From: Prevotellaceae bacterium
GTDB lineage: Bacteria; Bacteroidota; Bacteroidia; Bacteroidales; Muribaculaceae
DNA length: 64,000 nt
Direction: 5' to 3'
Assembly (NCBI GenBank): GCA_021772015.1
Contig: JAETNS010000001.1
Location: forward strand, 62,001 to 126,000
The position numbers were made by a program, and so were the translations under genes. The notes beneath the pieces are model-generated. The model saw only the letters and a program-made list of their open reading frames with translations. It was not told the DNA's origin and ran no database searches. This document shows, piece by piece, positions 2,482 to 28,132 of the stretch; the first letter of the stretch is position 1; every line of letters starts with the position of its first letter.

Positions 2482-4035
2482 TTATTCAGTAGGTTCGGGA
2501 TCAGGAGTGGGATCAGGCAGCATGTTGTCCTCGGTTTCCCATCCGATAGTTCTTATGCGGCGATTGGTCTGGTCGAGCACATAGAATATCTTCGATTCCT
2601 CGTCGTAAACAATGCCCGAGACATCGCGGAAACGGGCTCCGTTACGCAAGTCGCCGTCCTCGCTTCCCCAGATGTTGCCATTGGTGGAGGGGGAGCGCCC
2701 TGCAAAGGTCCGCACAAGGCCGTCGGGAGTGATGTAGCGGACACACCATCCGCGGCAGTCGGCCAAGTAGTAGTCGTATATGTCCTCGCGACCCTCGTCG
2801 ATATAATCCTGATTCTTTACGAAGACCCCTTGGTAAGGTTTGTCGAATCGGGCGTTGGATCCGACTGCGTCCATCCATCCGGCGATGCCGTTGGCTCCGG
2901 CAATGATATAGGGGGTCGTGAATTCCATCTTCTTCTCATCGTAGTCGGTGCGCAAGATGTAATTCCGGTTTATCACCGTAAGATAGGCATACTTGCCGCT
3001 GGGATGGATAGTGATCTGGAACTCATAGGATGGATCCATGATCTTGAAAAGCTCGCGGAAACAGCCGTCTTCCTTGTAGCCCGTCCATTTCACGGGTTCT
3101 CCCTTTTCATCGACCACCTGGCCGTTGACAGTGTTGAAATAATCGTCAAGGTTCATCCGGAAGAGCTCTCCGTTGGAGTAACTGTTGAAATACACCTCGC
3201 CATTGCGGGGATGAACGGCCACACCGTTACACTGTTTGTAGGCGACAAGCGGCTGACATGAGGAGCTGTCGCTGAAAGTGCCGTCAGCATTACGCCTGAC
3301 GATCCACACGCTTGTGGAATGGAAATTGTTGTCATCGCGGTCGGTGGAGACCAGCATGTACTTGCCGTCGAGTGTGAATGCTATGTTGCGCAGGCGCTTG
3401 TTCTGGAATTTGTTGGCTGAAATCATTTTGGTAGCCTCCCGCTTGGTCAGGTCGAGCTTGGCCACGAAACCGTCGCCACGATCGTATGCGATGTATATCC
3501 AATCGGGGTGCTGGGGATCGAAGGCCATGCAGCCCTCATTGCTGAAGCCGCAGCAGATGTCGAAGGAACCCCACATCTCCCCTTGGTCGTCTTGCTCATT
3601 GCGATAACCGCAAAGCGTCCCGACGACTCTTTTCGGCTCATACTTGAATTTAGCCGGAGCCACTGCGGTATGTGTCTTGCCGTCCGGTCCGTCGACAGAG
3701 ATCTTGATTTCACCTGAGAAAGCTCCCGAAGGGATGTAGGCATAGAGCTTGTCGCTCATGACATTGACCACGACCGCCTCCTTGCCTCCGATTTCGAGGG
3801 TCAGATCATCCTTGGAAATGCCGAAATTCTGTCCTTTGACAATTATCTGATCCTGATAACCGCCCCTTTCTGGTGTAAATGAGCTGATGACAATAGGCTT
3901 TGACGGATCAAACGGCATCGAAGTGTCAATTTCCGTGTTGTCGTCATTACATCCCACCATCATTGCAGAGATAAAAGCAATACCGACAATCCTGAGGCAG
4001 TGCTGATATCTCATCCTTAACTTTTTTAAATTCAT
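2482..4035 (-). CDS. IPT/TIG and NHL-repeat surface lipoprotein
   Basis: This is a lipoprotein of about 517 residues, probably on the cell surface. The chosen start (4035) gives a basic N-terminus, a short hydrophobic stretch and a lipobox ending MMVGC. An in-frame start at 4014 would also work. The first ~85 residues after the Cys form an IPT/TIG immunoglobulin-like fold (phrases such as GGYQDQIIVKGQNFG and VNVMSDKLYAYIPSG). The rest looks like an NHL/beta-propeller, with repeated blocks such as GVAVHPRNGEVYFNS and IVYDEESKIFYVLD. Proteins of this build sit beside susC/susD in many Bacteroidales glycan loci and probably help bind substrate, but no enzymatic activity is known to me. The gene precedes susC by 28 nt, and a -7 box lies just upstream at 4056-4063. 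Confidence 0.85.
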   Translation of the reverse strand: MNLKKLRMRYQHCLRIVGIAFISAMMVGCNDDNTEIDTSMPFDPSKPIVISSFTPERGGYQDQIIVKGQNFGISKDDLTLEIGGKEAVVVNVMSDKLYAYIPSGAFSGEIKISVDGPDGKTHTAVAPAKFKYEPKRVVGTLCGYRNEQDDQGEMWGSFDICCGFSNEGCMAFDPQHPDWIYIAYDRGDGFVAKLDLTKREATKMISANKFQNKRLRNIAFTLDGKYMLVSTDRDDNNFHSTSVWIVRRNADGTFSDSSSCQPLVAYKQCNGVAVHPRNGEVYFNSYSNGELFRMNLDDYFNTVNGQVVDEKGEPVKWTGYKEDGCFRELFKIMDPSYEFQITIHPSGKYAYLTVINRNYILRTDYDEKKMEFTTPYIIAGANGIAGWMDAVGSNARFDKPYQGVFVKNQDYIDEGREDIYDYYLADCRGWCVRYITPDGLVRTFAGRSPSTNGNIWGSEDGDLRNGARFRDVSGIVYDEESKIFYVLDQTNRRIRTIGWETEDNMLPDPTPDPEPTE

Positions 4036-4055
4036 GGTAGATATATTAATTTGGT

Positions 4056-4063
4056 CAAAAATA
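4056..4063 (-). promoter_or_regulatory. -7 promoter box for the TIG/NHL-susC unit
   Basis: The minus strand reads TATTTTTG, matching the Bacteroidota TAnnTTTG -7 consensus, about 20 nt before the start at 4035. A TTTG lies only 16 nt further upstream, shorter than the usual 19-21 nt, so the -33 element is uncertain. It would allow transcription of the TIG/NHL and SusC genes independently of the glutaminase-like gene upstream. Confidence 0.4.
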
Positions 4064-4100
4064 CTCCTTGAACAGGCTGCAAACCTGATGGTTCTTCCAA

Positions 4101-4130
4101 GGTCCCCGGGATCAAAGAATCCCGGAGACC
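4101..4130 (-). other. Intergenic hairpin between glutaminase-like and TIG/NHL genes
   Basis: Two 12-nt arms (4101-4112 and 4119-4130) pair around a 6-nt loop, with one imperfect pair that becomes G-U on the minus-strand RNA. No strong T-run follows. It may be a weak terminator or an mRNA-stabilising 3' end separating expression of the enzyme from that of the transport genes. Confidence 0.45.
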
Positions 4131-4193
4131 TTAGAATGCCATCTAAAAACAATCTTTAATTACCCTGAATATCAGCCTATGTGTGTATACTGG

Positions 4194-6745: not shown

Positions 6746-6791
6746 CAAAATTAGCATCTATTAACTAAGCGACATGAAAAACAATGTTCAA
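6746..6791 (-). promoter_or_regulatory. Promoter with TTGAA element, glutaminase-like gene
   Basis: The minus-strand -7 box TAATTTTG occupies 6753-6746, 36 nt before the ATG. TTGAA (6791-6787) lies exactly 33 nt upstream of it and continues as TTGAACATTGTTTTTC. The same element at the same distance occurs at three other promoters of this locus. No TTTG is present at -33, which fits an activator-dependent promoter. Confidence 0.65.
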
Positions 6792-6820
6792 ATATGTGTA
6801 ATTTTTAGTCAGCTTGGCTG

Positions 6821-6853
6821 TTGAACAGGTATTATTTGACCAATGAACAGGTA
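6821..6853. repeat. Direct repeat TGAACAGGTA x2, 22-bp period
   Basis: TGAACAGGTA occurs on the plus strand at 6822-6831 and again at 6844-6853, two helical turns apart. The core matches the TTGAAC element of the nearby promoters but in the opposite orientation relative to the downstream gene. It is probably an additional operator for the locus regulator. Confidence 0.5.
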
Positions 6854-6908
6854 CTTATAACAGACCGTCCAATTGTGAAATAATTGATCAGCCCGTGTCG
6901 GATCAACC

Positions 6909-8171
6909 TTATCTGACAATGATTTTAACCGCAGAACAGGCTGTGCGGGCTATATATATTCCGGGGACGGTCACGGCAACACGACCATATCCGGCTGCAT
7001 ATAATTCCCCTGTCATGGTATAAACGGACACCTCTCCATCGGCGCGGATATCCCCATTCGCGACTACTGATATCCTGTCTTTATCGGGGCCTCTATTCCC
7101 TATCGCCTCAATGCCCGATGATTGTTTGCCTCTGGGGATGTAGTGGTTGTTATTCTCGATGACCGCGTTTACAAGCTGCCTTCCTTTTACATCATACGAA
7201 CCTGCCTGGTCAACCCCGGCAAAGTCCATCATGACCATCCCGATTGGGCCTGCATTGTCTGTGTCTGCAAGGAAATCTATCACAAAAGCGTTGGTGTTGG
7301 CCGCATTCTTGCGATAGCTGTCGGCTGTGGAGAAAAGGCCCTCTTTAATGTAGCCGGAAGTATGGTTGATTACCCAGGTGTGACCGTTGTCTTGATTGAG
7401 TGTGGTCGAATAGTCAAGCAGATTCTTTATAGACTGTAGTTTTAAATCTTTTTCGGAGCTTCCGACTTCATAAAAATCCTGGACGTATAGACGAGAGTAT
7501 CCTCGTGATTCCCCCTTGATATTTCCGTTGCCTTGCTCGGAAAAATCGGGACTGTGGTTCCAGCCGGAGATAAAACCGCCTATCGGTCTGGATGAGTACT
7601 TGTCACGGCTCAGCAGCAGCATTTTGCCCCGGACATCCTCTACTGTAAGGCCGGGATTGAAATCAACAATACGGCCGGTATATTTCTCCGAACGAAGAAG
7701 CCGGGAAATCATGTCGTTCCAGCAACCCTTCTCATCATCATTCTCATGATCATCTTCATGTCGTATGACCACCACTATCCATTCGGTAGGGTATGCCTTA
7801 AGGCAGTCGAAGAGCTCATCGAGGGCATCTTCAAAGGTGACATTGGTCTCGACTATGCCATGATAAATTTTCAATATGTCGTTATCAACGGACGGGCGCA
7901 GGTCGAAGGCTCTTACCCCTGCCACGAACTGCTCGGTCAGAGAAAGTTGTTGCGTCCGGGCAAAGCTGTCGAGCTTCGTGCCATTGCCTGTCGCGGCATC
8001 ATGGGCTCCGGGTATTGAAATCTGATCGAGGTATGCCGTGGGGGAGAGGTGTTCCATCCATGCGACATCTGTTTGGCCATGTTCACTGAGGCCTGACGAA
8101 TGTTGCTGTGCTGACATTGTCATACAGGCACCCATAAAAATGGCAGAAAGGGCCTGCTTGAAATTTATCAT
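6909..8171 (-). CDS. Secreted PI-PLC X-domain protein
   Basis: This 420-residue protein has a signal peptide (about 1-21) and a phosphatidylinositol-specific phospholipase C X-domain (about 38-340). The two catalytic histidines of the family are visible, His57 in ISIPGAHDAATG and His104 in KIYHG, together with the substrate-side FDLRP motif (Asp90, Arg92) that is typical. Bacterial PI-PLCs cleave phosphatidylinositol and the lipid of GPI anchors. The C-terminal ~60 residues form the short tail with VPGIYI and a final Arg shared with other secreted proteins here. The gene has its own TTGAA-type promoter and sits inside a locus with three alpha-mannosidase families. A role in releasing GPI-anchored mannoproteins or trimming GPI glycans is therefore attractive, but it is inferred only from context. 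Confidence 0.87.
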   Translation of the reverse strand: MINFKQALSAIFMGACMTMSAQQHSSGLSEHGQTDVAWMEHLSPTAYLDQISIPGAHDAATGNGTKLDSFARTQQLSLTEQFVAGVRAFDLRPSVDNDILKIYHGIVETNVTFEDALDELFDCLKAYPTEWIVVVIRHEDDHENDDEKGCWNDMISRLLRSEKYTGRIVDFNPGLTVEDVRGKMLLLSRDKYSSRPIGGFISGWNHSPDFSEQGNGNIKGESRGYSRLYVQDFYEVGSSEKDLKLQSIKNLLDYSTTLNQDNGHTWVINHTSGYIKEGLFSTADSYRKNAANTNAFVIDFLADTDNAGPIGMVMMDFAGVDQAGSYDVKGRQLVNAVIENNNHYIPRGKQSSGIEAIGNRGPDKDRISVVANGDIRADGEVSVYTMTGELYAAGYGRVAVTVPGIYIARTACSAVKIIVR

Positions 8172-8224
8172 AAAGGATATTAGATTTTAAAGATTAGTTT
8201 TATCACTCGGACAACTTGTGTCTG

Positions 8225-8270
8225 CAAAATTAGCCGGTCAAAGTCAGAGCAATTATAAATCATGATTCAA
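8225..8270 (-). promoter_or_regulatory. Promoter with TTGAA element, PI-PLC gene
   Basis: The minus-strand -7 box TAATTTTG is at 8232-8225. TTGAA at 8270-8266 lies exactly 33 nt upstream and continues TTGAATCATGATTTA, close to the element in front of the 16837-19536 gene. The leader is about 50 nt. Confidence 0.6.
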
Positions 8271-8395
8271 TTATGGCCAAAAACAAGTCACATGGATCGT
8301 TTTTTGACAACACTTGGTTATCCAGGAAAAACTTCCCTGAAAATCGGACTCCCCGAGACATGTACAATACAGATAAAATAAAAACGACAATTGGT

Positions 8396-8426
8396 TTTGT
8401 CAGTATTTCTCTTTTTTATAACTTTG
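8396..8426 (+). promoter_or_regulatory. Canonical Bacteroidota promoter for the 8445 gene
   Basis: TTTG at 8396-8399, a 19-nt spacer and TAACTTTG at 8419-8426 match the consensus -33/-7 pair. The start codon follows 18 nt after the box. It lacks the TTGAA element of the surrounding promoters, so this gene is probably regulated separately. Confidence 0.7.
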
Positions 8427-8444
8427 TGTTATAAAATCTATATC

Positions 8445-9464
8445 ATGAAAGTATTATGTAGCATACTCGTCTTGATTATTGCCGCCGCTTTGTCAGGATG
8501 TTCAAAGCATCCTGAGACAGAAGTCACCGTCTTGTTTGAAGATGGGGCATATCCGTCGGCGGTGGAGCATAATGGTACTTATTACTATATCATGCAAGGG
8601 CCGCGTGTGGGGGTTCTTACTCTTTATTCATCTTCTGACATTTCAAAAATAGCCCAAGGGGAGACGCGGGATATTCTGAAGTCGGAAGATTATAAAATGC
8701 ACAATTTCTATTCGCCGGAGCTACATAGGATCAAGGATAAATGGTATGTCTATTTCGAGGCCGATGATGGCGACAACACTGACAATCACCAGCTTTATGT
8801 ACTTGAAAATCCGTCAGACGATCCAATGTCAGGAGAATGGAGCCTACACGGACCGATAATTACCGACAAAGATTGGAATTTCGGGCTTCACCCATCGACA
8901 TTCGTTGTCAAAGACAGGCAATACCTGATCTGGTCCGGGTGGCCTAAACGTCGTATAGAAAACGAGACACAGTGTATTTTCATCGCGGAGATGTCCAATC
9001 CGTGGACAACAAAATCGGAAAGAGTGATGATCTCCCAGCCTGAATATGAATGGGAACGCCAATGGATAAATCCCGATGGCTCACGCTCCCCGTATCCTAT
9101 TTTTGTGAATGAGAATCCGCAGCCTATGGTATCGCCTGACGGGCGCAAGATCATCATTGCCTATTCGGCAAGCGGAATATGGACTGTCTACAATACCCTC
9201 GGCATCCTTTCGGCTTCTACCGATGCTGATCTGTTAAACCCGACTTCATGGGTGAAGCTGCCTGAGCCTCAGTTTACATCGGACAACACCGACAGCATAT
9301 ACGGGACTTCAAACATAGCGATAATCCCCTCTTCAGATTTCTCGGAATACATAATGTTATATCAGGCAAAACAACGTGATTCCGAGGGTGAAGAGCATCA
9401 ATCGGTAAGAATGAAACGAATCGTCTGTAATGAACAGGGTTTCCCGGTATTCGGAAAACCCTGA
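8445..9464 (+). CDS. GH43-like five-bladed-propeller lipoprotein, catalytic acids altered
   Basis: This 339-residue lipoprotein has its lipobox ending LSGC at residues 14-17. I chose the ATG at 8445 because the promoter -7 box at 8419-8426 lies downstream of the earlier in-frame start. The repeats (AYPSAVEHNGTYYYI, FYSPELHRIKDKWYVYFEA, LHPSTFVVKDRQYLIWSG, ENPQPMVSPDGRKI) follow the GH43/GH62 clan-F propeller. Two usual acids appear changed. The ADPS of the catalytic base reads AYPS, and the pKa-modulating LD position reads LHP. A Glu survives in NENPQ. It may be a non-catalytic glycan-binding relative, or a GH43 subgroup with a shifted base. It lies on the opposite strand to its neighbours and ends tail to tail with the GH43 gene at 9492. 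Confidence 0.75.
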   Translation: MKVLCSILVLIIAAALSGCSKHPETEVTVLFEDGAYPSAVEHNGTYYYIMQGPRVGVLTLYSSSDISKIAQGETRDILKSEDYKMHNFYSPELHRIKDKWYVYFEADDGDNTDNHQLYVLENPSDDPMSGEWSLHGPIITDKDWNFGLHPSTFVVKDRQYLIWSGWPKRRIENETQCIFIAEMSNPWTTKSERVMISQPEYEWERQWINPDGSRSPYPIFVNENPQPMVSPDGRKIIIAYSASGIWTVYNTLGILSASTDADLLNPTSWVKLPEPQFTSDNTDSIYGTSNIAIIPSSDFSEYIMLYQAKQRDSEGEEHQSVRMKRIVCNEQGFPVFGKP

Positions 9465-9491
9465 ACATCTCAGACACAATTAGGATGGAGG

Positions 9492-10640
9492 TCAGCGGAT
9501 TGCTTTACGCGTGCTTCCATCGGAATATTTTACTAAATACAGTCCTTTATCGGCTTTTGACGGTTCGATGCTGTATCCGGAGACAGAATAATAGGCCACG
9601 GGAGTGGCATCCGATGGCGCGACAAAGTCTGTCGTGATTCCGGCATTTTCGTTCTCATCGACAAACACCGGCACTATTATCGATTCCCGATCGGCGGTGA
9701 TGGTGTAAGGCTGTCCTTTTGACTTGTCGATATTGAGTGTGATGATACGCGTGCGGCGCGGGTTTGCGCGGGTGTTGTCATGATGCACGTGATAGACATA
9801 GCGGATTTTGCCGTCATTATCGAAAAATATATCACCATGCCCCGACCCCCTTTCTCCTACAATGTTACGATGCAGAATCGGTGAGGCCGGATGTTTGGTC
9901 CACGGTCCGGTAGGGGAGGGGGCTGTGGCATATCCCACGGCATAGTCAGGACTCAGATAGTGGTTCGCCGAATAGAACATGTAGTACGTGCCGTCGAGTT
10001 TTATTACCGTGGGCCCCTCCATTATAGGCGCGCTGGGATATGCTCCGGTGTCTTCCCATTTCTCGGTATTGCGGAAACAGGCTATCGGCTCGCTTTTGAG
10101 CAGGAAAGTCACCGGATCGAACTCCGCGACATGCAATATGTTGCCATCCACAAAACGTACATGATAGAAATAGTATTTCCCGTCGTCATCTTTGAAAATG
10201 AAGGGATCGATGTTTTTCGCGCTATTGTCCACGGGCCGTATCGAACGTTGGTTGTAAAGATCGGTCAGGTTGGCGGCCTTGGCTACTGCTGTCTGTTCGT
10301 TGGCGGTGTAAGCCAGCAGATACCGGTCGCCATCCTTGAAAATCTGTGGTGCCCAGAAACCGGTTGTGCCGTATGTCTTTTTACCTTTCTGCAGAATCAT
10401 CGAGTCGGGCATGGCGTATTTCCAGTTGCGCAGGTCAGAGCTTTCAAGCAAGGTGAATCCCATTGGCTCATAGCTGCGTGTTCCGGCCATATAATATTTG
10501 CCATCCTCCACATATACGGTGGGATCTGCAAGGAATATTTCGCTTTGCGATGATGACGGACTTTCATTGACATCTGCAAAACCGGAAATCACAGTCGCGC
10601 ATGCGAGCATGGCCGGCAGCAGGAGACGTTTTGTGTTCAT
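9492..10640 (-). CDS. GH43 family glycoside hydrolase
   Basis: This 382-residue secreted enzyme has a signal peptide (about 1-22). The propeller carries all three GH43 acids: Asp39 in LADPTVY (base), Asp in NIDPFIF (pKa modulator) and Glu in IMEGPTVI (acid). GH43 members remove arabinofuranose, xylose, galactose or galactofuranose residues; which one applies cannot be read from the sequence. The last ~35 residues are the C-terminal tail (SVSGYSI ... GLYLVKYSDG). The gene follows GH76 by 55 nt and is probably co-transcribed from the regulator/GH76 unit. The motif CTTAAGTAACTG (10652-10663) just upstream recurs as part of a palindrome at 34055-34076. Confidence 0.9.
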   Translation of the reverse strand: MNTKRLLLPAMLACATVISGFADVNESPSSSQSEIFLADPTVYVEDGKYYMAGTRSYEPMGFTLLESSDLRNWKYAMPDSMILQKGKKTYGTTGFWAPQIFKDGDRYLLAYTANEQTAVAKAANLTDLYNQRSIRPVDNSAKNIDPFIFKDDDGKYYFYHVRFVDGNILHVAEFDPVTFLLKSEPIACFRNTEKWEDTGAYPSAPIMEGPTVIKLDGTYYMFYSANHYLSPDYAVGYATAPSPTGPWTKHPASPILHRNIVGERGSGHGDIFFDNDGKIRYVYHVHHDNTRANPRRTRIITLNIDKSKGQPYTITADRESIIVPVFVDENENAGITTDFVAPSDATPVAYYSVSGYSIEPSKADKGLYLVKYSDGSTRKAIR

Positions 10641-10695
10641 ATTCAGATTATCTTAAGTAACTGTCTAAAACTGTTGTTTGCAGGTTATCTCCTTT

Positions 10696-12747
10696 TTATC
10701 TGATGATTGTTTTGATCCCGTTGACGATGAATATCCCCTTGCCCGGGATATTCATGTAACTGCGGCCATACAAATCGTAGATGGCATAATCTTCGTGACA
10801 ATCCGCCATTACTTCCTGTATTGAGGATGCCGATGAGAAGACCATGTCACGGAACACACCGCGTCCTTCTCCGACGTTTACGACATAGACCGTATGGGAG
10901 CCTGTTATAGTGCGGTCAAACTCTACAGTGTGCTGTCTCATGGAGCTGTCCAGGTCTTCAATTTTTGCTACAAGACAATCGTCAGCGATATTGTCGAGGT
11001 ATATTGCAATTGACGTTTCGTCATCACCGCTTGCAGAGACCGAGATCGCAGAAGCCCCACCGGAAGAGAAATCCACATTCTTGAAACAAAGCCATGAGCC
11101 GCATGTGGCTTTGTCTGTGGTTGTGGTGTTACGGGAAGAAAGGCGCCACCATTTAATATCATCCATCATGTCGGCGGTAATCTCGTCATACGCGTTTTTC
11201 GCGAATGTACGGTTGACATGGGCATTGAATGCGACCGAAACGGCTGTGGAGGCTCCGAAAGCATCCGTTGAAAAATCCTTGACCTCCTCTCCTTCAATGC
11301 TTTTGAAGTTCTCGGGTGTTTTGCTCATCCATTTCGACCAGACCACACCTTTTGAGTTTGAATTCTGGAATGCGTGAAAAGCGTTGTCCTCAAGCCATTG
11401 CAGCGGACTCTCGTCACCGATTTCCTCGGCATACAACCTCACATACCTCACCAGTATGCCTTTAAACCCGGAAAGGTCTCCCGTGGCAGTCTGGCAGGCA
11501 TTGATCACACGCAGGCTATTGTTTGCGGTCAGGCTGTTATAAGCCCATTTATACACTTTATCGGCATAAGACTTATAAGAGGTGTCGCCTGTGAGCCGGT
11601 ACAATTTGATTGAAGCCCCTATCATCGTGCCCTGGTTATAGGTGGATCCCCAATAGTTGCCGACGTTGAATGTGGTCCAGTCATCGGACCATGAACCGCT
11701 GTCCCATATATGTCCGTCATTCTTATCGCAAAGAGTGTCGTACTGGGCTTTCCAAAGTTTTTTTGCCCGGTCGAGATATAGGTCCTCGCCGGTCATCTCG
11801 TAAAGATAGCATAGCGCGATAATCGCCGGACCGTTGATACAGGAATTTGAACCGTGGTCGGAGGCATTCTGGCTCCAGCGCAGGGTGCCTGCGGGTTGAA
11901 TGGCACGGGCATACATTCGCTCGAAGTTTTCACGGGCGAGGTCAAGATAATCCGGGTCACCGAAATATTTGTAACCTCTGACACAAGCCAGCACCATCCA
12001 TGCGATATCGTCATTGAAGGCGTTGTAACTCCAGTCGCGACCCTGACGGGCCAAGAAATTCGATACCAGCTGCTGATAATAGTTCTGGTATTTTGCGTTT
12101 CCTGTAGTCTCGAAGGCATCGAGGATGACTTCTATCATCTCCGCGTCACTCCAGAACCCTCCGCTCCCCAGCAGATATCCATTATAGCCGGGCCGATAGT
12201 ACTGGTTGATGAATCCGGTCATCATGCGGTCACGGATTCTGGCATCAAATCTCTCCGGAATAATATCTGTGACCTCGTCGAAAGACCATTCAGTCGGGAC
12301 GCTGACATTTCCGACGGGTCGGAGTGTCGGATGGCTGCCGTCGGCAAGATCCTCAAGCATCACAACGAACGAGCCGTTTGATGACAGGATATTGTAGACA
12401 TTGTTCTTGCCTGGCACGGCCTGAAGTTTCCAGGCCGCATTCCGTTTAACAGTGGAACTTGTCAACGTCGAGCCGTCTTTTGCCGAAGTAGGTGTGCAGA
12501 TATACTTGTCTTTATAGCCGCAGCGCAGTGAAACGGTGCCATTGCCGTTATCTGCCAACAGCCATTTCTCTGCCGGAGTGTCGGTTGTTGTCCAGGCAAC
12601 TATGTCAGATCCGTTTGCAATATCGGAATTTTCGGGTGACAGGCATTTTGACTGCGAGCTTATGGTATAGTACCTGCCCGGTGTCTGGGCTCCGGAAGTC
12701 GCGGATGCTCCCAACAGCAGACACCCCAATAAGACAAATTTTTTCAT
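10696..12747 (-). CDS. GH76 endo-alpha-1,6-mannanase with N-terminal ricin-like domain
   Basis: This 683-residue secreted enzyme has a signal peptide (1-20) and a beta-trefoil/ricin-like carbohydrate-binding region (about 24-155, with repeated WKL/EKWLL blocks). The GH76 (alpha/alpha)6 domain (about 175-500) carries the paired catalytic aspartates Asp246-Asp247 in YNAFNDDIAWM. A C-terminal beta-sandwich with CBM6-like phrasing follows (about 525-645), then the GIFIVNG tail. GH76 enzymes cut the alpha-1,6-mannan backbone of yeast mannan or related glycans. The ATG abuts the stop codon of the hybrid regulator with no spacer, so the two genes are one transcript. This is the strongest single indication that the locus targets an alpha-mannoside. 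Confidence 0.93.
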   Translation of the reverse strand: MKKFVLLGCLLLGASATSGAQTPGRYYTISSQSKCLSPENSDIANGSDIVAWTTTDTPAEKWLLADNGNGTVSLRCGYKDKYICTPTSAKDGSTLTSSTVKRNAAWKLQAVPGKNNVYNILSSNGSFVVMLEDLADGSHPTLRPVGNVSVPTEWSFDEVTDIIPERFDARIRDRMMTGFINQYYRPGYNGYLLGSGGFWSDAEMIEVILDAFETTGNAKYQNYYQQLVSNFLARQGRDWSYNAFNDDIAWMVLACVRGYKYFGDPDYLDLARENFERMYARAIQPAGTLRWSQNASDHGSNSCINGPAIIALCYLYEMTGEDLYLDRAKKLWKAQYDTLCDKNDGHIWDSGSWSDDWTTFNVGNYWGSTYNQGTMIGASIKLYRLTGDTSYKSYADKVYKWAYNSLTANNSLRVINACQTATGDLSGFKGILVRYVRLYAEEIGDESPLQWLEDNAFHAFQNSNSKGVVWSKWMSKTPENFKSIEGEEVKDFSTDAFGASTAVSVAFNAHVNRTFAKNAYDEITADMMDDIKWWRLSSRNTTTTDKATCGSWLCFKNVDFSSGGASAISVSASGDDETSIAIYLDNIADDCLVAKIEDLDSSMRQHTVEFDRTITGSHTVYVVNVGEGRGVFRDMVFSSASSIQEVMADCHEDYAIYDLYGRSYMNIPGKGIFIVNGIKTIIR

Positions 12748-15700
12748 TTATACAGGATTTGATGAATTATTATTAGAGGTTTTGGAATTGACATATTCTT
12801 TAGGACTCATTCCGAAACGTGCTTTGAAACACTTGGCAAAATATGACGAGGAGGTGAAGCCGGCCCGTTCTCCTGCTTCCGTCACTCTGAGACCGGCTAC
12901 AAGAAGGCGGGCGGCATAGTCAAGACGGAAGTTTTTCAGATAGTCGTTAGGCGACAATCCGGTTACCGACTTGAGCTTGCGATAGAAGGTTGAACGGCTC
13001 ATATTCATGAGTGTCGCCAACTCGTCTATGGAAAATTCCTCGACCAGAATCTTTTCCCGTATATAGTCGTTGAGCGTTTCTATGAATTCCGTGTCAACCT
13101 GATTTATAAAGGGGGCCTCCTGAGTGGCGCTTTCTGCAGAGATGTCGCCTGAAGATATACGTGAATAGAACTGCTCGCGGGTCTTTATCATGTTGGCGAG
13201 CTGCAAGGTGATCTGCTTTATCGTAAACGGTTTCTCTATATAGACATCCGCGCCGCATTCCATGCCTTCTTCCTTGGCCTCGCTGTTTGTCTTGGCTGTC
13301 AGGATTATGAATGGGATATGGGAGAATCTGACATCCTGTTTTACTTTCCGGCACAATTCCGCGCCACTCATGCCCGGCATCATGAAGTCACTGATAATGA
13401 AGTCGACCTCTATCCCGCTGTCAAGCTTCTTCAATGCTTCATCTGCGTTTTCGGCCGTGATGATGTTATAGTTCTCCGAAAGCAACCCTTTGATGGTGTT
13501 GAGCAGTTCGACATTGTCATCAATGAGCAGCACGGATAATTCATGTTGCCTGCAGGTGTCTGATCCGGCGGCGCGGACCTCCGGGGAAGGCATCGTTTCT
13601 GTCGGCGTTTCTGACATGCCGGCAGTTGCCAAAGGCAATGTTATCGTAAAGGAGGCGCCCCCGTTGCTGTTGTTTTCAGCCTTTATGTCACCTCCATGCG
13701 CCCTGACTATCATTTTCGCATAGGCAAGTCCCATGCCGGTCCCGAGGGAACCGGCGACATTGTCATTATTGACCTGATAGAATGAATCAAATATTTTCTC
13801 GCAATCATCAAACGGAATGCCGGGGCCGTCATCTGAAACAGTAATCTGGAATAGCCCGTCGGCCGTCTCGGTCAATGCCACCTCAATGCCGGTTCTACAG
13901 TATTTGACCGCATTGCCGATAATATTCATCATGACGCGGTCGATTTTACCCGCATCAATTGATGCTATCACTTCTCCCTGAGATGTGTGTAATGTTATAC
14001 TCCGACCCGCAGCCTCCATCGGATGCTCAAAACGGCCTACAATCTCCGAAATGAACCTGTTGATATTCCTGCTTTCCGGGACAAGATGCACCTCTTTATT
14101 ATTTTCAGCCTTGTGGAATTCAAGCAATTGGCTGATAATACCGAGGAGATAATTCACGTTTCGCCGTACAGAGGTAATATGCTTTTTGCTGTCTTCTATT
14201 TGGAATTTCCCCTGATTGAGATCATCGGCCATCTTTTCAAGCGGTAAGCTGATCAGGGTAAGAGGTGTTCTGATTTCATGCACGAGGTCGATGAAAAATT
14301 TCATCTTTGATTCATAAGATTCCCTCTCCTGCTGGTGCTTGAGTGTTTCCATGCGCTGGTTGTAATGGCGGCGGATACGGTTGCGGAAAAGCATCCCTGT
14401 CACATAAAGCGCCAGCACAAAGAGCACCGCGTAGATCGTATAGGCCCACCAGCTACGGTACCATGGAGGAAGCACGATGATCGTAAGACGTTGTGTGTCC
14501 AGGTCAGAACCGAAACTCGGTTTGAGCAAGAACGTATATTTACCCGGGCTAAGATTCGTATATGTCGTTTCTGAACCGGCATCATCTATCCACCCCTCAT
14601 CGACTCCTTCAAGTTTATAATTATACCGGACATCCGGCATACTGTTTCCGCGTGAAGCTGAAAGATGTAGAGTGAAGCTATTGTGGGAATAAGGAATCTT
14701 TATCTCATCAGTAAGATAGAGTAATTTGTCAAGTCCCAGATCCTTTATCTCATTACCATTGCTTTCAGCATATGGGAAAGAAATTGACTGGACGTAGGAA
14801 CGTGCTTTCTGGCTGTCAGGGTTTATCTTGTTGGGATCGAAAAGCCAGAGATTTTCGTCACAACCGAAAAGAATGCGGCCATCCGGCAGGGGACATGCGG
14901 CCATTGTGTATGAATTCGCATTTGCCGCCGCCGGATAAGTGAAATAAGCAAGATGATGATCAGGCGTAAGCTTGGCAAGACCATAGCTGCCGCCAAGCCA
15001 CAGATTGCCGTCTCTATCGTTGAAGACATTGGAGACCGGACTGTCTTTAGGCAGCACGACATCAAGTTTTACAAAATCATCCTGTCCTTCATCAAAAGAG
15101 AAAATATCATTGTCCTGACTGATCAGCCATAAAGTGCCGTTTGTGTCAAGATGTGAGAGACGTACAGGAGTCTTGTCTATGACTGTGCTTGAAAAAGGTC
15201 TGAACTGGTGGGAGGCGTGTTCTTTCATGTAGATAATATTGCTTGCGGTCACAAGCCAGACACGCCCCGCGCGATCCTCCTCTATGGCTATGAACGGAAT
15301 ATGATTGTCTATTTCTCCTATTGTGGTAAACGTCTTTTTCTTGGGATCAAATTTACACACTCCCCAACCGGTGAGCACGTAATACTCATCGTTGCTTGTA
15401 TGATAGATATTCTTGATGTTGTTGCTGATGACTGCGTATGGAGTATTGTCGTTATACGCAAACTCCTCTACGTCATTCGTGTTCAAGTCCCATAGGATTA
15501 CGCCGTTATTGATGGTGCCCACATAAATACGCCCTTCGGTGACCGCCATGTTGGTGACATTTACTCTGTCCTTGACGGGCATCACATCATGTCGTATTGT
15601 TTTATCCGATATGTCATAATAGGAAACACCCGACTCTGTGCCTAACCATACGCCCTTGTTGTCTGACGACAGGCGCATGTCGGTGATCCTTTCATCAGAG

Positions 15701-16716
15701 TCTGATTCGTTTGAGAAATCCAGTTTCAGAAAATCATTTGGAGTGGGAAGTATGTATGACAGTCCTCCGAAACGCGACAATACGACAATACTGCTGTCGT
15801 TGTCATAAGTGATCTGGGCAACGTCGTAATCGTCAATGATTTTGTCACTGATCCGATTGCCGGGGATGTCATAAAGCCATACGCCGCTATCGGTGCCTAA
15901 AAGTATTTTTGAGTCATTGGTCGGACTTACACAATTGATCTGGCTGTAACTTTTGTCTTGATGCAGACACGCGACAAGCCGATTCTCTATATCGTACCTG
16001 AATAATTTGTTATGCGCTGATATCCATATTTCATTACCTATGCTCGCGAGCCGGATCATACGCTTGTCGGCCGCATATTGGGGTAATACAAAACTGTTGA
16101 CAAATCCCCCGGCGGTATTAAACACATTTACTGTACCATCCATGCACACGGTGTATACGCGGCCGTCGCTGCCGATAACCATGTCGTAATAGAAAATCCC
16201 GTTCCGGCTGTTCTGCACGAGTGTGTGGCTTTTCTCATCAAGGATGAAAATTCCCTGGCCATAAGTAAGTATCCAGATTGTGCCATTGCCGACATCACAT
16301 ATTTTCTGGACCGTGGAGCTGATCGATACTCCGTATTTCGTCTTGTAGGAAAATGGTTTGGAGATGTTGTTTTTCCGATCAAACACATAAAGACCATCGA
16401 GATCACCAAACCAGATGTCGTTGCCGTGTTCAAATATTGTGTTGATATTTTTGCGTTCGGTGCCGTCCAGAACACCAGGCCATGAATTTATTACTGAGTT
16501 GTAATTTCCGTCATAGCAGCATATACCTGAAGTGGTACCGATCCATAAAAATCCATATTTGTCCCTCAGGAGGCAGTTATTGCTTTTCCCCTGTGGGACT
16601 CCTGAATTAACAATCATTCCAAATTTACTGCTTTCAGCTGCCGCAGACGACACTGATATTGAGGCAAATATTAGTGAAAGAAAGATATTTGAAAGTATAA
16701 ATAATTTTCTTTTCAT
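12748..16716 (-). CDS. Hybrid two-component system regulator (sensor kinase/REC/AraC)
   Basis: This 1322-residue one-protein signalling system is of the kind that controls Bacteroidales glycan loci. In order it has a signal peptide (1-27), two periplasmic Reg_prop beta-propellers (about 30-640), a Y_Y_Y domain (about 680-745), a transmembrane segment (about 755-775), and HisKA with the phosphoacceptor His813 in VHEIRTPL. Then come HATPase (GNAVKY, DDGPGI, GTGMGLAYAK), a receiver with phospho-Asp1110 in IISDFMMPG, and a C-terminal AraC-type helix-turn-helix (about 1215-1315, MSRSTFYRKLKSVTG, GFTSSSYFAKCF). It is expected to bind an oligosaccharide product of the locus in the periplasm and activate the susC and enzyme promoters. 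GH76 follows directly. The TTGAA elements at four promoters are candidate targets. Confidence 0.96.
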   Translation of the reverse strand: MKRKLFILSNIFLSLIFASISVSSAAAESSKFGMIVNSGVPQGKSNNCLLRDKYGFLWIGTTSGICCYDGNYNSVINSWPGVLDGTERKNINTIFEHGNDIWFGDLDGLYVFDRKNNISKPFSYKTKYGVSISSTVQKICDVGNGTIWILTYGQGIFILDEKSHTLVQNSRNGIFYYDMVIGSDGRVYTVCMDGTVNVFNTAGGFVNSFVLPQYAADKRMIRLASIGNEIWISAHNKLFRYDIENRLVACLHQDKSYSQINCVSPTNDSKILLGTDSGVWLYDIPGNRISDKIIDDYDVAQITYDNDSSIVVLSRFGGLSYILPTPNDFLKLDFSNESDSDERITDMRLSSDNKGVWLGTESGVSYYDISDKTIRHDVMPVKDRVNVTNMAVTEGRIYVGTINNGVILWDLNTNDVEEFAYNDNTPYAVISNNIKNIYHTSNDEYYVLTGWGVCKFDPKKKTFTTIGEIDNHIPFIAIEEDRAGRVWLVTASNIIYMKEHASHQFRPFSSTVIDKTPVRLSHLDTNGTLWLISQDNDIFSFDEGQDDFVKLDVVLPKDSPVSNVFNDRDGNLWLGGSYGLAKLTPDHHLAYFTYPAAANANSYTMAACPLPDGRILFGCDENLWLFDPNKINPDSQKARSYVQSISFPYAESNGNEIKDLGLDKLLYLTDEIKIPYSHNSFTLHLSASRGNSMPDVRYNYKLEGVDEGWIDDAGSETTYTNLSPGKYTFLLKPSFGSDLDTQRLTIIVLPPWYRSWWAYTIYAVLFVLALYVTGMLFRNRIRRHYNQRMETLKHQQERESYESKMKFFIDLVHEIRTPLTLISLPLEKMADDLNQGKFQIEDSKKHITSVRRNVNYLLGIISQLLEFHKAENNKEVHLVPESRNINRFISEIVGRFEHPMEAAGRSITLHTSQGEVIASIDAGKIDRVMMNIIGNAVKYCRTGIEVALTETADGLFQITVSDDGPGIPFDDCEKIFDSFYQVNNDNVAGSLGTGMGLAYAKMIVRAHGGDIKAENNSNGGASFTITLPLATAGMSETPTETMPSPEVRAAGSDTCRQHELSVLLIDDNVELLNTIKGLLSENYNIITAENADEALKKLDSGIEVDFIISDFMMPGMSGAELCRKVKQDVRFSHIPFIILTAKTNSEAKEEGMECGADVYIEKPFTIKQITLQLANMIKTREQFYSRISSGDISAESATQEAPFINQVDTEFIETLNDYIREKILVEEFSIDELATLMNMSRSTFYRKLKSVTGLSPNDYLKNFRLDYAARLLVAGLRVTEAGERAGFTSSSYFAKCFKARFGMSPKEYVNSKTSNNNSSNPV

Positions 16717-16780
16717 ATAGAACCTTTTGGCGTATGATTATAAGACTTCAGGATGTAAAATTAGTAAAATTTTTAAATAA

Positions 16781-16817
16781 CAAAAAGAGAGGCCGACAAT
16801 CCGGCTCTCTCTTTTTG
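16781..16817 (-). terminator. Rho-independent terminator after the 16837-19536 gene
   Basis: A long stem with a 5-nt loop and one bulge pairs 16781-16795 with 16801-16817. On the minus strand the descending arm ends CTCTTTTTG and is followed by T-rich sequence. It lies 20 nt past the stop codon and separates this gene from the regulator unit. The A-rich opposite flank means it may also work in the other direction. Confidence 0.75.
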
Positions 16818-16836
16818 TTTTAGTTTAGATCAGAGC

Positions 16837-19536
16837 TTATCGAACAATGAATTTTTTACCATTCTGGATATATATTCCGGGAACGGTCGGGTTGATCACC
16901 CTGATTCCCTGGAGATTGTAGATGTTATTGTCAGAAGGATATTGCTTATTGTCTGTCACAACTTCGTCAATACCGGCTGACAATGCTTGCTCTACCTCCT
17001 CAACGGTGGTTTCCGCGCCATAGTAGTTGAGACGGAAATTGTCTATCACAACCCAGTCTTCGGGGGAACCCTGTTCATCTTTGCCGACACCGATAACGAG
17101 GTCTTCGTCACCTTTGGCTACTGTGAAATGGACCGGATAGAGACCGGAACGGAAATAGTTCGCGGCCTGATCGCAATATTCGGGTATTTCATACTTGGTG
17201 CCTTCCGCGCTTGTCACGACACGACCCTCGCCCGGAGCCTTAAAGCTTTCGCTGAGGATATTGGGAAGGTAGGCTTCCCCTTCTGCACCGGCATAGATAT
17301 AAGCGTTTCGCAGGGGTTCGAGATCGGCCTGGCCTGTGACTTCTTCAGTTGTGTTATGACGGCCATTGCGATAGAAACCGTTGGCATGGAGTACATAAAC
17401 GCCGGCCGGAAGCCCTGCAACCATCTGGCTTGCGTCGAAATCAGTTGAGTTCCAAGACTCAAGGCAGAAATCGTTACGGTTGCTGCCACGTTCCCAAATT
17501 GCTCCGTTGTTGATTGTCCAGGCAGTTTCCACCGGTTCGCGCTGGTTGAATCCCGGTGCGACGATAGCAAAGGTTGCGTCAACCGGATTATTGAGAGATG
17601 CGGTTTCAAGCAATTCCTCGCGTTCAGCTCTTGTGACCAGTTTCCACTGCGCGTTGGGATTATCCTTGCCTTCCTCGAATTTGGGTGAGCGACACTCTGT
17701 GCTGACAGTGGTTTCATTACCCTGGCCGCCATCGGTGCTTGCATACGGATCCCATGTCATATAAGCATCCTGCCAGTCGCCCTGGACAATGTTGAATACA
17801 TTCTGCTTGCCTTCAACCGGGAGGAATTTCCAGCCGCCTCCGGCATCCATTCTTGATCCGTCCATATATCCGCGATAGCTCAGGTAATGTCTGTCATCTC
17901 CGTTATAAAGACCGGTCTCGATTGCAAAGGACTGGTTGTCAGCATTCTCTTCTTCGAGAGTGAGAAGAATACCGGGCATCCCGAGAGCTGCGTGTGCACC
18001 CCAGTCAGCGCCTCCGCACAGGAACTGTTTCTTGCCTACATTATAGAGATAATACTGACCTCCGGCAACTGGAGCCTGGCCGGGGAACACGTCGGGATGC
18101 GTGATGGCAACTGCCGCACGGCGCAGGTAACGAAGCTCGCGGAGGGCATTTACATAATCATCACGGGTTTCTGCGGCATTGAACATTGCTACAGCCGAGG
18201 ACACATCGATACCTGCGGCATCGGTGATCTGTTTTGTCGCATTGAAAGCTTCAATCTCGCTCATGGCTGAAGTCACGCCTGCAATGAGTTTGTAAAGATC
18301 ATACATTGCCAGACGAAGAGCGGTAGGATTATTGCCTGCCTTCGCTTCGTTGGCTCTTGCAAGAGCTGCAGCCACAGCCGGTGTGGAGGGCAATTTTTCT
18401 GCCTGGCCGATCACAGTGGCAAGTTCACTCTTGAGCTTGCTGCAATCCTGTGCGGGAGTCGCGGCGCTCACATATTTGAGCTGGAAATTGTCATATACCA
18501 GCCAGTCATCTGCAATGCCGTCAGGTTTGGAGATACCCAGAATGAGAGTCCCGTCGGTCACAACGGCATCGATCCATTCATTGAAGCCAAGTCCCTGATT
18601 AAATACGTTGGAAGCATTGTCAAGGTTGTTGGGCACCCAGATGCCGGCGCTCTCTATATTATATGAGAACTGATCCGCGACCTCATTGGGTGAGGAGATT
18701 TTTGACAGGGGCATGAGTTTGGCCTCGTTTGCTCCGGCGAAGTATATCGCACGCTGAACTTCGGTTCCGGCGGTAACTCGCTGTTGGAATTCAGAGTCAT
18801 CTACCCGGCCGTCACGGTAATATCCCTGTACATTGAGCTTGTATGTGCCGTTGGGCAGCCCCTCGAGCACAATATAGTGGACATAGTTCTGGGCATTGTT
18901 CCAGGCTTCGCGAACCTTGTTGCTCATCGTTCCGCCGTCGGTGACATTGGAGTTGCCTGAATAGTGTAATGTCCAGAGGCTGTTTCTGCTGTCATTCATG
19001 GCGAAACCATTTCCGGGAATAAGCCATGTGGCATCGGATTCTCCGGAAGCGGCTTCCGATTTCATGACATTCAGGCGGTCTTGACGGGTCACAAACTGCC
19101 AGGTGTTGTTGGTTTCGGCATAAGACTGGAGCCTCCCATCGGATTCGCCGAGCAATGACTGCTCAGGATTGCCTTCTCCACCTACCGCAGTGATTTGATA
19201 GCCGTTTGTCACCCCGTCCTTTTCGACAGGTGTGATCTGCCATACCGTGACAGGCTGGCCGGTGTCCATGTAGAAACGGTCATTGCCTCCGGCGATGCTG
19301 TTGTTCCCGCCAAATTTGGGATTCAGCTGGTAGCCATTGTCGAGTTTGATTACTTCGAGGTCAAAACCTACGTTTCCAAGAGCGGCGTGGGTGGTGTGCT
19401 TTCCACTCTCTACTTGGTACATAAAGAAATCACCACTTCCATCTGCGGGCAGTACAGAGCCTGCATAAGGTGACGCTCCCGTCATGGCAAGCGAGGTGAT
19501 CACGCCCATGCCTAAGAGTAAATGTCTCTTGTCCAT
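16837..19536 (-). CDS. Secreted protein with internally duplicated binding modules
   Basis: This 899-residue exported protein has no family that I recognise with certainty. Two similar halves are visible (about 35-365 and 475-845). Each starts with a ricin-like block (FFMYQVESGKHTTHAALG; YYLYNVGKKQFLCGGADW), followed by a jelly-roll-like module with matching motifs (LPNGTYKLNVQGYYRDGR and LPAGVYVLHANGFYRNGR; DDWLVYDNFQLKYV and EDWVVIDNFRLNYY). The halves are joined by an alpha-helical linker (about 370-450) of the FIVAR type. The C-terminus is the shared tail (YNLQGIRV ... GIYIQNGKKFIVR). No catalytic signature stands out, so a secreted or surface glycan-binding role is the likeliest guess. 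It has a TTGAA-type promoter and is transcribed divergently from the 19814 operon. Confidence 0.75.
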   Translation of the reverse strand: MDKRHLLLGMGVITSLAMTGASPYAGSVLPADGSGDFFMYQVESGKHTTHAALGNVGFDLEVIKLDNGYQLNPKFGGNNSIAGGNDRFYMDTGQPVTVWQITPVEKDGVTNGYQITAVGGEGNPEQSLLGESDGRLQSYAETNNTWQFVTRQDRLNVMKSEAASGESDATWLIPGNGFAMNDSRNSLWTLHYSGNSNVTDGGTMSNKVREAWNNAQNYVHYIVLEGLPNGTYKLNVQGYYRDGRVDDSEFQQRVTAGTEVQRAIYFAGANEAKLMPLSKISSPNEVADQFSYNIESAGIWVPNNLDNASNVFNQGLGFNEWIDAVVTDGTLILGISKPDGIADDWLVYDNFQLKYVSAATPAQDCSKLKSELATVIGQAEKLPSTPAVAAALARANEAKAGNNPTALRLAMYDLYKLIAGVTSAMSEIEAFNATKQITDAAGIDVSSAVAMFNAAETRDDYVNALRELRYLRRAAVAITHPDVFPGQAPVAGGQYYLYNVGKKQFLCGGADWGAHAALGMPGILLTLEEENADNQSFAIETGLYNGDDRHYLSYRGYMDGSRMDAGGGWKFLPVEGKQNVFNIVQGDWQDAYMTWDPYASTDGGQGNETTVSTECRSPKFEEGKDNPNAQWKLVTRAEREELLETASLNNPVDATFAIVAPGFNQREPVETAWTINNGAIWERGSNRNDFCLESWNSTDFDASQMVAGLPAGVYVLHANGFYRNGRHNTTEEVTGQADLEPLRNAYIYAGAEGEAYLPNILSESFKAPGEGRVVTSAEGTKYEIPEYCDQAANYFRSGLYPVHFTVAKGDEDLVIGVGKDEQGSPEDWVVIDNFRLNYYGAETTVEEVEQALSAGIDEVVTDNKQYPSDNNIYNLQGIRVINPTVPGIYIQNGKKFIVR

Positions 19537-19619
19537 AAAGATTGGATTTGTTAATTAAGTTTAGCTATATTGGGGATTGGTCTTTCGGCTTGTTTAAGGT
19601 TGTAGCATGGCTTACGACG

Positions 19620-19665
19620 CAAAATTAGGGCTTTGCTGTTTCGTCGTTGGAAAATCATTGTTCAA
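19620..19665 (-). promoter_or_regulatory. Promoter with TTGAA element, 16837-19536 gene
   Basis: The minus-strand -7 box TAATTTTG is at 19627-19620. TTGAA at 19665-19661 lies exactly 33 nt upstream and reads on as TTGAACAATGATTTTCC. The leader is about 80 nt. Confidence 0.65.
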
Positions 19666-19738
19666 AAACGGACAATATCATGTCAATTCAGGCAATATAT
19701 CCCTTAATGCATTGTCATTGAACGGAGTTTGCAAGTGT

Positions 19739-19784
19739 TTGAACAGACGTTTGCGATAAAGACTATTATGAATGTGTAATTTTG
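19739..19784 (+). promoter_or_regulatory. Promoter with TTGAA element, plus-strand enzyme operon
   Basis: The plus-strand -7 box TAATTTTG is at 19777-19784. TTGAA at 19739-19743 lies exactly 33 nt upstream and continues TTGAACAGACGTTTGC. A second TTGAAC at 19718-19723 is 21 bp further upstream in the same orientation, the helical spacing usual for AraC-type direct repeats. The start codon is 30 nt beyond the -7 box. Confidence 0.65.
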
Positions 19785-19813
19785 TGACAAACTTAAATCT
19801 TATTATTCACCAC

Positions 19814-22800
19814 ATGAAACCTGTCTCAAAAGCATTTCTTGCCATGTCTGTGTTCGGGGTGTTGTCGCTCCCGTCTATGGCTCAGACAGCGGAGGATTTT
19901 GTCCCTTACCGGCAGTCGGAGTTGCGTTTGCCCTCAGTGCCGATTCTCATCAATGATCCGTATTTTTCCATTTGGTCTAACCAGGATGACCTCAATGGAG
20001 GAGCCACCACTCACTGGAGCCTGCAGGAAAAGGCCGTCGACGGTCTTCTTAGAGTCGACGGTACTACCTATCGATTTCTTGGACATCAAAAGAAAAACCT
20101 GCTCAAACCGATAGCCCCCATGACAGTCGATGGCCCGGGCTGGTCAGGGAAAGTAAACTACAACAGGCAGACCGGTGATGAGTGGGCGCAACCTTCCTTC
20201 AACGACTCATCGTGGCAGACCGAACAGGCCGCCTGGGGTACCCCGGGAGAATACCCGTCGGTCAACAACACATGGACCGGTGACGACAAGGACATCTATG
20301 TACGCCGCAATGTGGAGCTCTCCAACGCAGACCTCACCAAGGATTTGTGGGTGAAATTTTCCCATGACGATGTTTTTGAGCTGTACATCAATGGCACGAA
20401 AATAGTTGAAACCGGCCTGACATGGCTCCAAGGTGAGGAGCAAAAACTCACAGCGGCCCAAAAGGCATTGCTTAAACCGGGCAATAATGTCATCGCAGCT
20501 CATTGTCATAACACGAACGGAGGGTCATATATAGATTTTGGCCTGTATGAAAACGTCCTCTCTGACAATAACGCTATCAGACAGGCAAACCAGACCGACG
20601 TGGATGTGATGGCTACCAGCTCATATTACGTATTCGAATGTGGCCCGGTAAAACTTGATGTGGTTTTTACCGCCCCGCTTCTTATCGATGACCTCGATCT
20701 GATATCCACTCCTATAAACTATGTGTCATATCAGGTGACCTCGACCGACGGTCAACCACATGATGTCCAGTTCTATATCGGCACAACACCGCAATTGACG
20801 GTCAACGAGATGAACCAGCCGACCGTGTCGTCTATAGTGACTGAAAACGGCACAAAGTATATCAAATCAGGGTCTAAGGAACAAAAAGTGCTTGGCCGCA
20901 GCGGTGATTTGATTTCCATTGACTGGGGTTACCTTTATATCCCGGCCATCAATGGCAAGGTCTCGATAGCCTCCGGCATAGAAGGGGAGAACTATTTCGT
21001 GACCAACGGAAAGCTGGCCGACACCCCGGCCGGACAGACCTTTGCGAGCACCAACCGCAGCGATATGCCTGTCCTTTCATTCATGAACGACCTCGGAAAA
21101 ATCAAAGAGGGCCGCAGTTACATGATGATAGGCTATGACGAGATATACGATATGCAATACATGCATAAAAACTACAAGGCATATTACGCGCGCGACGGAA
21201 AAACGATCTTCGATGCGTTCAAAGACCTGAATAAAAATTACAACAGCATCATGAAACGTTGCCGCGCTCTTGACAAGACAATCTACGAGGATGCGTTGGC
21301 TGCTGGAAATCAGAAATATGCAGAGCTTCTATCAGGGGTGTACCGCCTTGTGATGGGTGCCCATAAGTTATTCCAGGATGACAAGGGGCAGGCGTTGTAT
21401 TTCTCAAAAGAAAACAAATCTAACGGCTGCGTCAACACCGTTGACCTGACTTATCCCGAATCTCCCCTCTATCTGATGTATAACCCTACCTTACAGAAGG
21501 GTATGATTCTCTCCATTCTCGATTATGCTATGAGCGATGCCCGTAAGGGGAAAAACTGTGCGGCCCATGACCTTGGCCAATACCCGCTTGCCAACGGCAT
21601 GGTATATGGCGACACAATGCCACTTGAGGAATCAGCCAACATTATAATTCTCGCCAACGCGATATGCCGTATCACAGGTGACGGAGAGTGGCTCAAACCC
21701 TATAGGAATGTCCTCCGTACTTGGGCTGATTATTGTTATAAGGAGGGACAAAATCCGGGTAATCAGCTTTGTACGGATGATTTCAAGGGACCCAGCGAGC
21801 AGAATACCAATCTCTCTGTCAAGGCAATTATGGCAGTCGCCGCATATGCGGAACTTATTCCTTATATCGGGGCAAACAGCCGTGATATAGAGCGTTTCCA
21901 GAACTATGCCAAAAACATGGCATTGCTATGGGAGGCGGATGCCCGCGATGGAGACCACTACCGTATGGAATTCCATAAGGGGGGAACATGGAGCCAGAAA
22001 TACAATCTCGTATGGGACAAAATGTGGGGTTATAATATTTTCCCGGCTGAAGTCCTTGACAGAGAGATCAAATTCTATCTGACCAAGCAGCAGAAATTCG
22101 GCCTTCCGCTTGATAGCCGAGACCTGCAGACCAAGGCCGACTGGATAATGTGGACAGCTGCGATGTCTCCCGATACCGATACTTTCCTCGCTTTCGCTGA
22201 CCGTGTGTATGACTATGCCGATCAGACTACCTCGCGAATACCTCTCAGCGACTACTATTGGTCAAACACAGGCCGTGATGTCAATTTCAGTGCCCGGTCG
22301 GTACTCGGAGGCCTTTGGATGAAAGTCCTGATGGACAAGATTTTGCCCGAACAGGTCAATACCGGATGGGCTCCAAGAGGGAATCATATCAAGACCCGCT
22401 GGACTGCTGATGTCAATCCCGAAAATGTACTGCCTGAATATCCGCGTCCTCAATTTGTACGTGACGAATGGTTGAATCTGAATGGACTTTGGGATTATTG
22501 CATCACTGAATACAATGGTACCCCCAAGACTTTTGACAATCAGATTCTGGTGCCTTTCCCGATTGAGTCAAGCCTTTCTGGCGTGATGTACCCCCTCGAA
22601 CCCGGAAAAGCCATCTGGTATAAACGTGAAATAGAGATTCCGTCTGAATGGACCGGCAAAAACGTCGTTATCAATTTCGGGGCGGTAGACTATCAGGCTG
22701 AAGTATATGTCAATGGCACCACCGGCCGTTATCGTGTCGGCAATCATGTGGGAGGCCATACCTCGTTCGCTTTTGATATTACCGACAAGGTAAAGGATGG

Positions 22801-28131: not shown

Positions 28132-28132
28132 A

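Follow-up and report, generated by a model that had tools for sequence, protein, structure and literature searches.

The window, the whole stretch of 64,000 nucleotides that was analyzed, harbors a locus that is predicted from its GH76, GH92, GH125, SusC and SusD genes to be an alpha-mannan-type PUL, and the enzyme families point to yeast mannan as the probable substrate. The gene of a glutaminase-A-like protein (4194–6710, minus strand) heads a run that continues on the same strand with a TIG gene (2482–4152) and with a SusC gene (TIGR04056; 1–2453) straddling the left edge of the window, beyond which SusD, DUF4973/BT_3044-like, GH76, phosphatase and BSP-peptidase genes follow. A PI-PLC-X-like protein is encoded at 6909–8171 (minus strand), with a marginal Pfam score of 23.5 bits for a cut-off of 23.1. 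Further along lie a GH76 gene (10696–12747, by Pfam), a gene for a hybrid two-component system (HTCS) regulator of 1322 aa (12748–16716, minus strand) and a gene for an 899-aa protein (16837–19536, minus strand, hereafter the 16837 gene). The last of these is the conserved divergent partner of a gene for a GtaA-like and GH2 fusion enzyme (19814–24328, plus strand), which is followed by GH92, GH125 and GH43 genes (24386–29101, plus strand), presumably of the same operon. Operon membership throughout was predicted from strand and spacing, and the -7 boxes and start sites are putative, assigned by consensus.

The 899-aa product yielded no match in Pfam, NCBIfam or PDB sequence searches. By eye, its two halves resemble each other, a signal peptide is recognizable and the tail ends in GIYIQNGKKFIVR. 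Locus L020 contains a tandem pair of 16837-type genes (11941–14691 and 15201–17978), with one operator each. A phosphatase (L196, 7805–10417, minus strand) and the PI-PLC-like protein (window 6909–8171, minus strand) were also observed among the mannan enzymes, which suggests phosphorylated or lipid-anchored mannan as the substrate.

A search of the window for TTGAA-N33-TAnnTTTG returned four matches, exactly where the first-pass annotation had placed four TTGAA sites with identical spacing to a -7 box, so both the coordinates and the spacing held. When gaps of 15 to 60 were scanned, more than one match was obtained at gap 33 alone (four matches), with one each at gaps 40 and 54, and the gap-54 match (19718, plus strand) is the distal half of the operator whose proximal half starts at 19739 (plus strand). 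TTGAA stands at the N33 offset of 4 of the 40 TAnnTTTG boxes of the window and, in line with the earlier claim for the other boxes named there, at no further box, whereas other offsets have a mean of 0.067 and a maximum of 1; the Poisson probability of at least four at one spacing is 7.8e-7, or at most 8.3e-5 across 106 spacings. The continuation TTGAAYM-N4-TTT, likewise reported earlier, was confirmed at all four promoters and occurs nowhere else in the window. The 2.86-Mb genome contains five matches of TTGAA-N33-TAnnTTTG, the fifth inside a 718-aa ORF. Because a reversed-pattern control likewise gave four matches genome-wide and the bare pattern is present in 364 of 397 family genomes, the pattern is not diagnostic by itself; what is diagnostic is that a single locus carries it at four promoters.

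The TTGAA element, though real and fixed in its spacing, is merely the proximal half of a direct repeat, the distal half of which had been overlooked. An offset scan of the four proximal sites detected a second copy 21 bp upstream at 4/4 promoters, with a sum score of 6.7 at this offset and of -8.4 at the runner-up (offset -10). The distal and proximal 17-mers are identical at 6, 7, 10 and 10 of 17 positions, summing to 33, while the sums at other distances between 17 and 70 have a mean of 18.5 (sd 3.5) and a maximum of 27, at distance 22. The element is a direct repeat with a 21-bp period, equal to two helical turns. Its half-site is approximately TTGAMCAGATWTTT, and the proximal half begins 38 bp upstream of the TAnnTTTG -7 box.

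A model of the operator (R1) was built from 15 sites, four from the window and 11 from five relatives, and in the window's own genome it detected exactly four sites at 38.9–48.6 bits, the next best match scoring 14.3 bits. The first, P1 (6746–6812, minus strand; 39.3 bits), has its distal half at 6812–6796, its proximal half, with the TTGAA, at 6791–6775 and the -7 box TAATTTTG at 6753–6746; previously described as the promoter of the glutaminase-like gene, it does carry the site there, but it opens the whole SusC/SusD gene run. P2 (8225–8291, minus strand; 40.7 bits), the promoter of the PI-PLC-like gene, consists of a distal half at 8291–8275, a proximal half at 8270–8254 and a -7 box at 8232–8225, while in P3 (19620–19686, minus strand; 48.6 bits), the promoter of the 16837 gene, these parts lie at 19686–19670, 19665–19649 and 19627–19620, respectively. 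P4 (19718–19784, plus strand; 38.9 bits) precedes the fusion gene, with halves at 19718–19734 and 19739–19755 and the -7 box at 19777–19784. The site described before this plus-strand operon was thus found, and the gene start needed correction: the listed start, 19772, would precede the -7 box, and the true one is most likely 19814, an in-frame ATG, the frame being open upstream (19772–19814, plus strand).

The regulator encoded within the locus (12748–16716) combines, by Pfam, a Reg_prop/Y_Y_Y sensor, HisKA, HATPase, REC and an AraC-type HTH (HTH_18) in one chain, which is the domain set of the HTCS class. The SHIP residues of its REC domain are the S/CHIP part of the S/CHIP-DK contact motif described for HTCSs in the sections consulted of PMC11253607. 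In PMC3878776 (sections consulted), HTCS motifs are predicted as direct repeats averaging 21 bp; the repeat found here, with its 21 bp, has the form published for HTCS operators, and the locus HTCS is accordingly well supported as the regulator of the four sites. An ortholog at E ≤ 1e-200 was detected in 17 of the 397 sampled family genomes, the window's own genome counted. R1 matched at E ≤ 5e-5 in 11/11 held-out genomes with an HTCS ortholog versus 8/380 others (Fisher 1e-16), and at E ≤ 0.01 in 17/17 HTCS genomes versus 78/380 genomes without a full-length HTCS (Fisher 5e-8). Among the eight exceptions at E ≤ 5e-5, G001 and G009 have HTCS fragments and the site of G114 adjoins a distant HTCS; of the other five (G197, G317, G187, G218 and G333), stretches fetched for the first four yielded no HTCS, so that six of the eight are unexplained or explained only distantly. 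The HTH residues FYR[KR] and SYFA[KR]CF were observed in 20/20 orthologs versus 0/15 other aligned AraC-type domains, a conservation that is partly due to common descent.

Two further HTCS-type REC and AraC C-termini were found in the genome (C2:118038–118799 and C28:16037–16840), and three additional matches span the receiver part only. Because these two C-termini exist, the assignment of the regulator rests on linkage and co-occurrence, and the same repeats might be bound by another AraC-type regulator elsewhere in the genome, with the locus HTCS controlling something else. We regard this as improbable, since the strong sites are confined to this locus in the genome and, from genome to genome, go together with the locus HTCS, and since R1 matches only weakly on C2 (11.1 bits) and C28 (10.6 bits), at places far from the HTCS-type genes there. 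The four sites are very probably operators of the locus HTCS, which would bind them and activate the adjoining genes. The ortholog-promoter test described below, the 21-bp repeat form and the co-occurrence of site and regulator all support the hybrid AraC-type protein that the first-pass annotation had put forward as the candidate, and the assignment may be called strong but not exclusive, well supported but unproven.

A second HTCS of the same genome is split over two ORFs of 804 and 642 aa (L083, G000:C2:116500–123000, at 1512–5940 on the minus strand), owing to a frameshift, a sequencing error or a split gene, and an adjoining 289-aa ORF has, by eye, the look of a GH16-type enzyme. Autoregulation of the locus HTCS was considered as well and rejected as the likely case: the promoters of HTCS genes carry the site in 0/10 held-out genomes and 0/5 genomes of the model, and a terminator-like hairpin, with its core at 16792–16805 (minus strand), precedes the gene, between it and the 16837 gene. 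Being without a site and downstream of this hairpin, the HTCS gene is probably outside the regulatory loop.

A total of 52 strict sites, counted with the spacing fixed and the -7 box taken as T[AT]nnTTTG, were obtained from the loci of 18 of 19 genomes; G147 has an R1 match and no strict site. Twelve slid controls, in which the repeat was moved by 1–9 bp, gave 0–1 sites each versus these 52. Across the 52 sites, the majority letters of the two halves are nearly equal (distal TTGAACAGATTTTTT, proximal TTGAACAGATATTTT), the distal half being looser than the proximal one and having A or C at its fifth position, and the place of the proximal half-site relative to the -7 box is fixed. TTGAA-TAnnTTTG pairs at gap 33 numbered 10 in the first five genomes and 16 in eleven further genomes, versus means of 0.16 and 0.42, respectively, at the other gaps of 10–60. 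The five relatives annotated first keep the divergent pair of 16837-type and fusion genes, with the HTCS gene downstream of the 16837-type gene.

The first-pass annotation had named absence of the spaced motif at orthologous promoters as the result that would speak against it, and the motif proved to be present before the fusion, 16837-type and glutaminase genes and absent before the PI-PLC genes (0/4). With a gapless model from 15 sites and a score above 15, applied to genomes outside model building, the site was observed at 10/11 fusion-gene promoters, at 8/8 promoters of 16837-type genes and at 9/9 glutaminase orthologs of at least 68% identity. The single miss is the fusion-gene promoter of G001, in which both halves are displaced by one base. 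The glutaminase promoters of four model relatives, which were outside the training set, scored 19.0–44.7. PI-PLC orthologs carry the site in 0/2 held-out genomes and in 0/2 model relatives (G050 and G043), the gene having a different setting in all four. Since the PI-PLC gene of G050 and G043 sits further along the same-strand run headed by the glutaminase and SusC genes, P2 seems to be an arrangement belonging to the window genome.

The same test bears on the possibility that the promoters resemble one another through duplication along with paralogous genes, without a conserved regulator. Such an origin would suit the glutaminase-like gene, which is paralogous to the N-terminal part of the fusion gene, but the PI-PLC and 16837 genes have no Pfam family in common with them, conservation is mostly limited to the half-sites and the -7 region, and more distant glutaminase paralogs lack the site in the held-out genomes (0/3). 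The 16837-type gene is unrelated, and its promoters in the held-out genomes largely contradict duplication, which we consider very unlikely; operators read by one conserved regulator, the locus HTCS, are the better supported account.

As to the scope of the held-out test, gene starts were extrapolated from tblastn and hits starting past query residue 60 were excluded, among them the 16837-type genes of G288 and G161, as was G147, which lies at a contig edge. A score of 15 was picked as the cut-off after the scores were seen. Among 300 random stretches, the 95% point was -6.2 and the maximum, 60.6, equals the score of a true site, because the stretches came from the same loci. No ORF was found downstream of the sites at L084 (7577, plus strand) and L090 (2795, plus strand), and ORFs were mis-called for P4 of the window, where the frame is open upstream, and for L020 (11706, minus strand).

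The -33/-7 consensus is given as TTTG/TAnnTTTG in the portions consulted of PMC7366714. None of the four promoters has a TTTG at N18–21 from the box, in agreement with the earlier claim that TTTG is missing at -33, and the one TTTG of P4 at N23 lies within the half-site. This absence says little, since TTTG at N18–21 is also rare at other boxes, most of which need not be promoters (3/38 strict sites versus 39/345 other boxes across the loci). A class II-type activator promoter would be expected to have its proximal half-site beside the -33/-35 region and a weak or absent -33 element; the half-site was seen to hold a constant place relative to the -7 box, and the TTTG counts discriminate little. 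The GH43 gene divergent from the PI-PLC gene has a textbook promoter (within window 8395–8464, plus strand), with TTTG-N19-TAACTTTG at 8419 (plus strand) and no copy of the repeat, and the own-genome scan gave no R1 match at this promoter, which offers an internal contrast to the four operators.

A mechanism may be proposed in which the HTCS senses a periplasmic alpha-mannan-type oligosaccharide and its receiver domain becomes phosphorylated. Two AraC-type DNA-binding domains would then sit head-to-tail on both half-sites, on the same face of the DNA, and the proximal domain, ending beside the -33 position, would contact RNA polymerase and so compensate for the lack of a -33 contact. One signal would thereby jointly induce the SusC/SusD run, the PI-PLC gene, the 16837 gene and the GtaA-GH2/GH92/GH125/GH43 run.

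At the araBAD promoter, AraC occupies the direct-repeat half-sites I1 and I2, which are about 21 bp apart with the proximal one beside the -35 element, and activates the polymerase. The window operators resemble this arrangement in the distance between the half-sites and in the promoter-adjacent place of the proximal one, but they differ from it in the sigma factor and promoter elements and in kinase sensing as opposed to arabinose binding. A closer likeness in gene content is provided by HTCS_Man of B. thetaiotaomicron (BT2628, BT3302 and BT3786), for which the sections consulted of PMC3878776 describe a hybrid AraC-type regulator in an alpha-mannan locus, a motif in which 5 bp separate two 16-bp sites, giving the same 21-bp period, and SusC/SusD and mannosidase genes as targets. 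The window locus comes from another family of the order than HTCS_Man, and the comparison covered repeat geometry and gene content. The window HTCS has SHIP, whereas BT2628, BT3302 and BT3786 are reported to deviate from the contact motif and to have little REC-DBD contact (PMC11253607, sections consulted).

Use of the element by a SusR-like or a global Crp-like (BT4338) regulator is the least credible reading and can practically be set aside, for although SusR-like operators are also direct repeats at glycan genes and the BT4338 motif is assigned to many sugar genes, SusR operators have 67 or 77 bp between their repeats and not 21 bp as here, the DNA-binding domain of SusR-like regulators is unlike other known ones while that of the window regulator is AraC-type (PMC3878776, sections consulted), and the BT4338 site is palindromic, its core having two window matches with three mismatches, neither within the four operators, for 1.77 expected. 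The AraC-type HTCS of the locus accordingly stays the preferred regulator. In the literature consulted in part, HTCS operators are mostly predictions from Bacteroides. The sections consulted of PMC3878776, PMC11253607, PMC12125979, PMC11501099, PMC7366714 and PMC6874557 contain no statement of a fixed distance between an HTCS operator and the -7 box. The kind of operator is already known; less documented is its constant placement relative to the -7 box.

The generality of this register was scanned at 37 HTCS loci from three genomes of other families (G086, G065 and G080). Among 470 boxes, the top mean identity fell at offset 39 and period 21 (z 2.3), with several other cells at z 2.0–2.2, while counts of strong repeats were 69 for period 16, 56 for period 24 and 51 for period 21; among 81 intergenic boxes, no period-21 cell was present in the 12 best. 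No 21-bp repeat of at least 12/17 was found upstream of 11 SusC-like starts in these other-family loci. The positive control, consisting of the window and 16 relatives (103 boxes), peaked at N33 and period 21 with z 5.5. Across 295 genomes of the order, R1 matched eight besides its own at E ≤ 0.001, with every E-value in the range of 1e-4 to 1e-3, for a nominal expectation of about 0.3; these E-values are rough and the matches near noise. It is conceivable, and we advance it tentatively, that HTCS activators of Bacteroidota, at least within an HTCS subfamily, keep a rigid spacing to the -7 box that the primary sigma factor recognizes, their tandem AraC domains replacing the -33 element, so that the operator alone would reveal the start site of an HTCS-driven PUL promoter.

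Among the switches that govern glycan use in gut Bacteroidota, HTCSs form a major class, and here the operator, its register to the -7 box and the likely regulator were defined via 52 conserved sites in 18 genomes. The 67-bp operator is ready for use in binding and reporter tests, and it provides a rule by which start sites could be predicted. In G114, a similar operator with the same N33 spacing (L088, contig C63, 5631, plus strand) was observed at a GH2-type gene beside the distant HTCS, which is about 26% identical, and this hints that the register reaches beyond orthologs.
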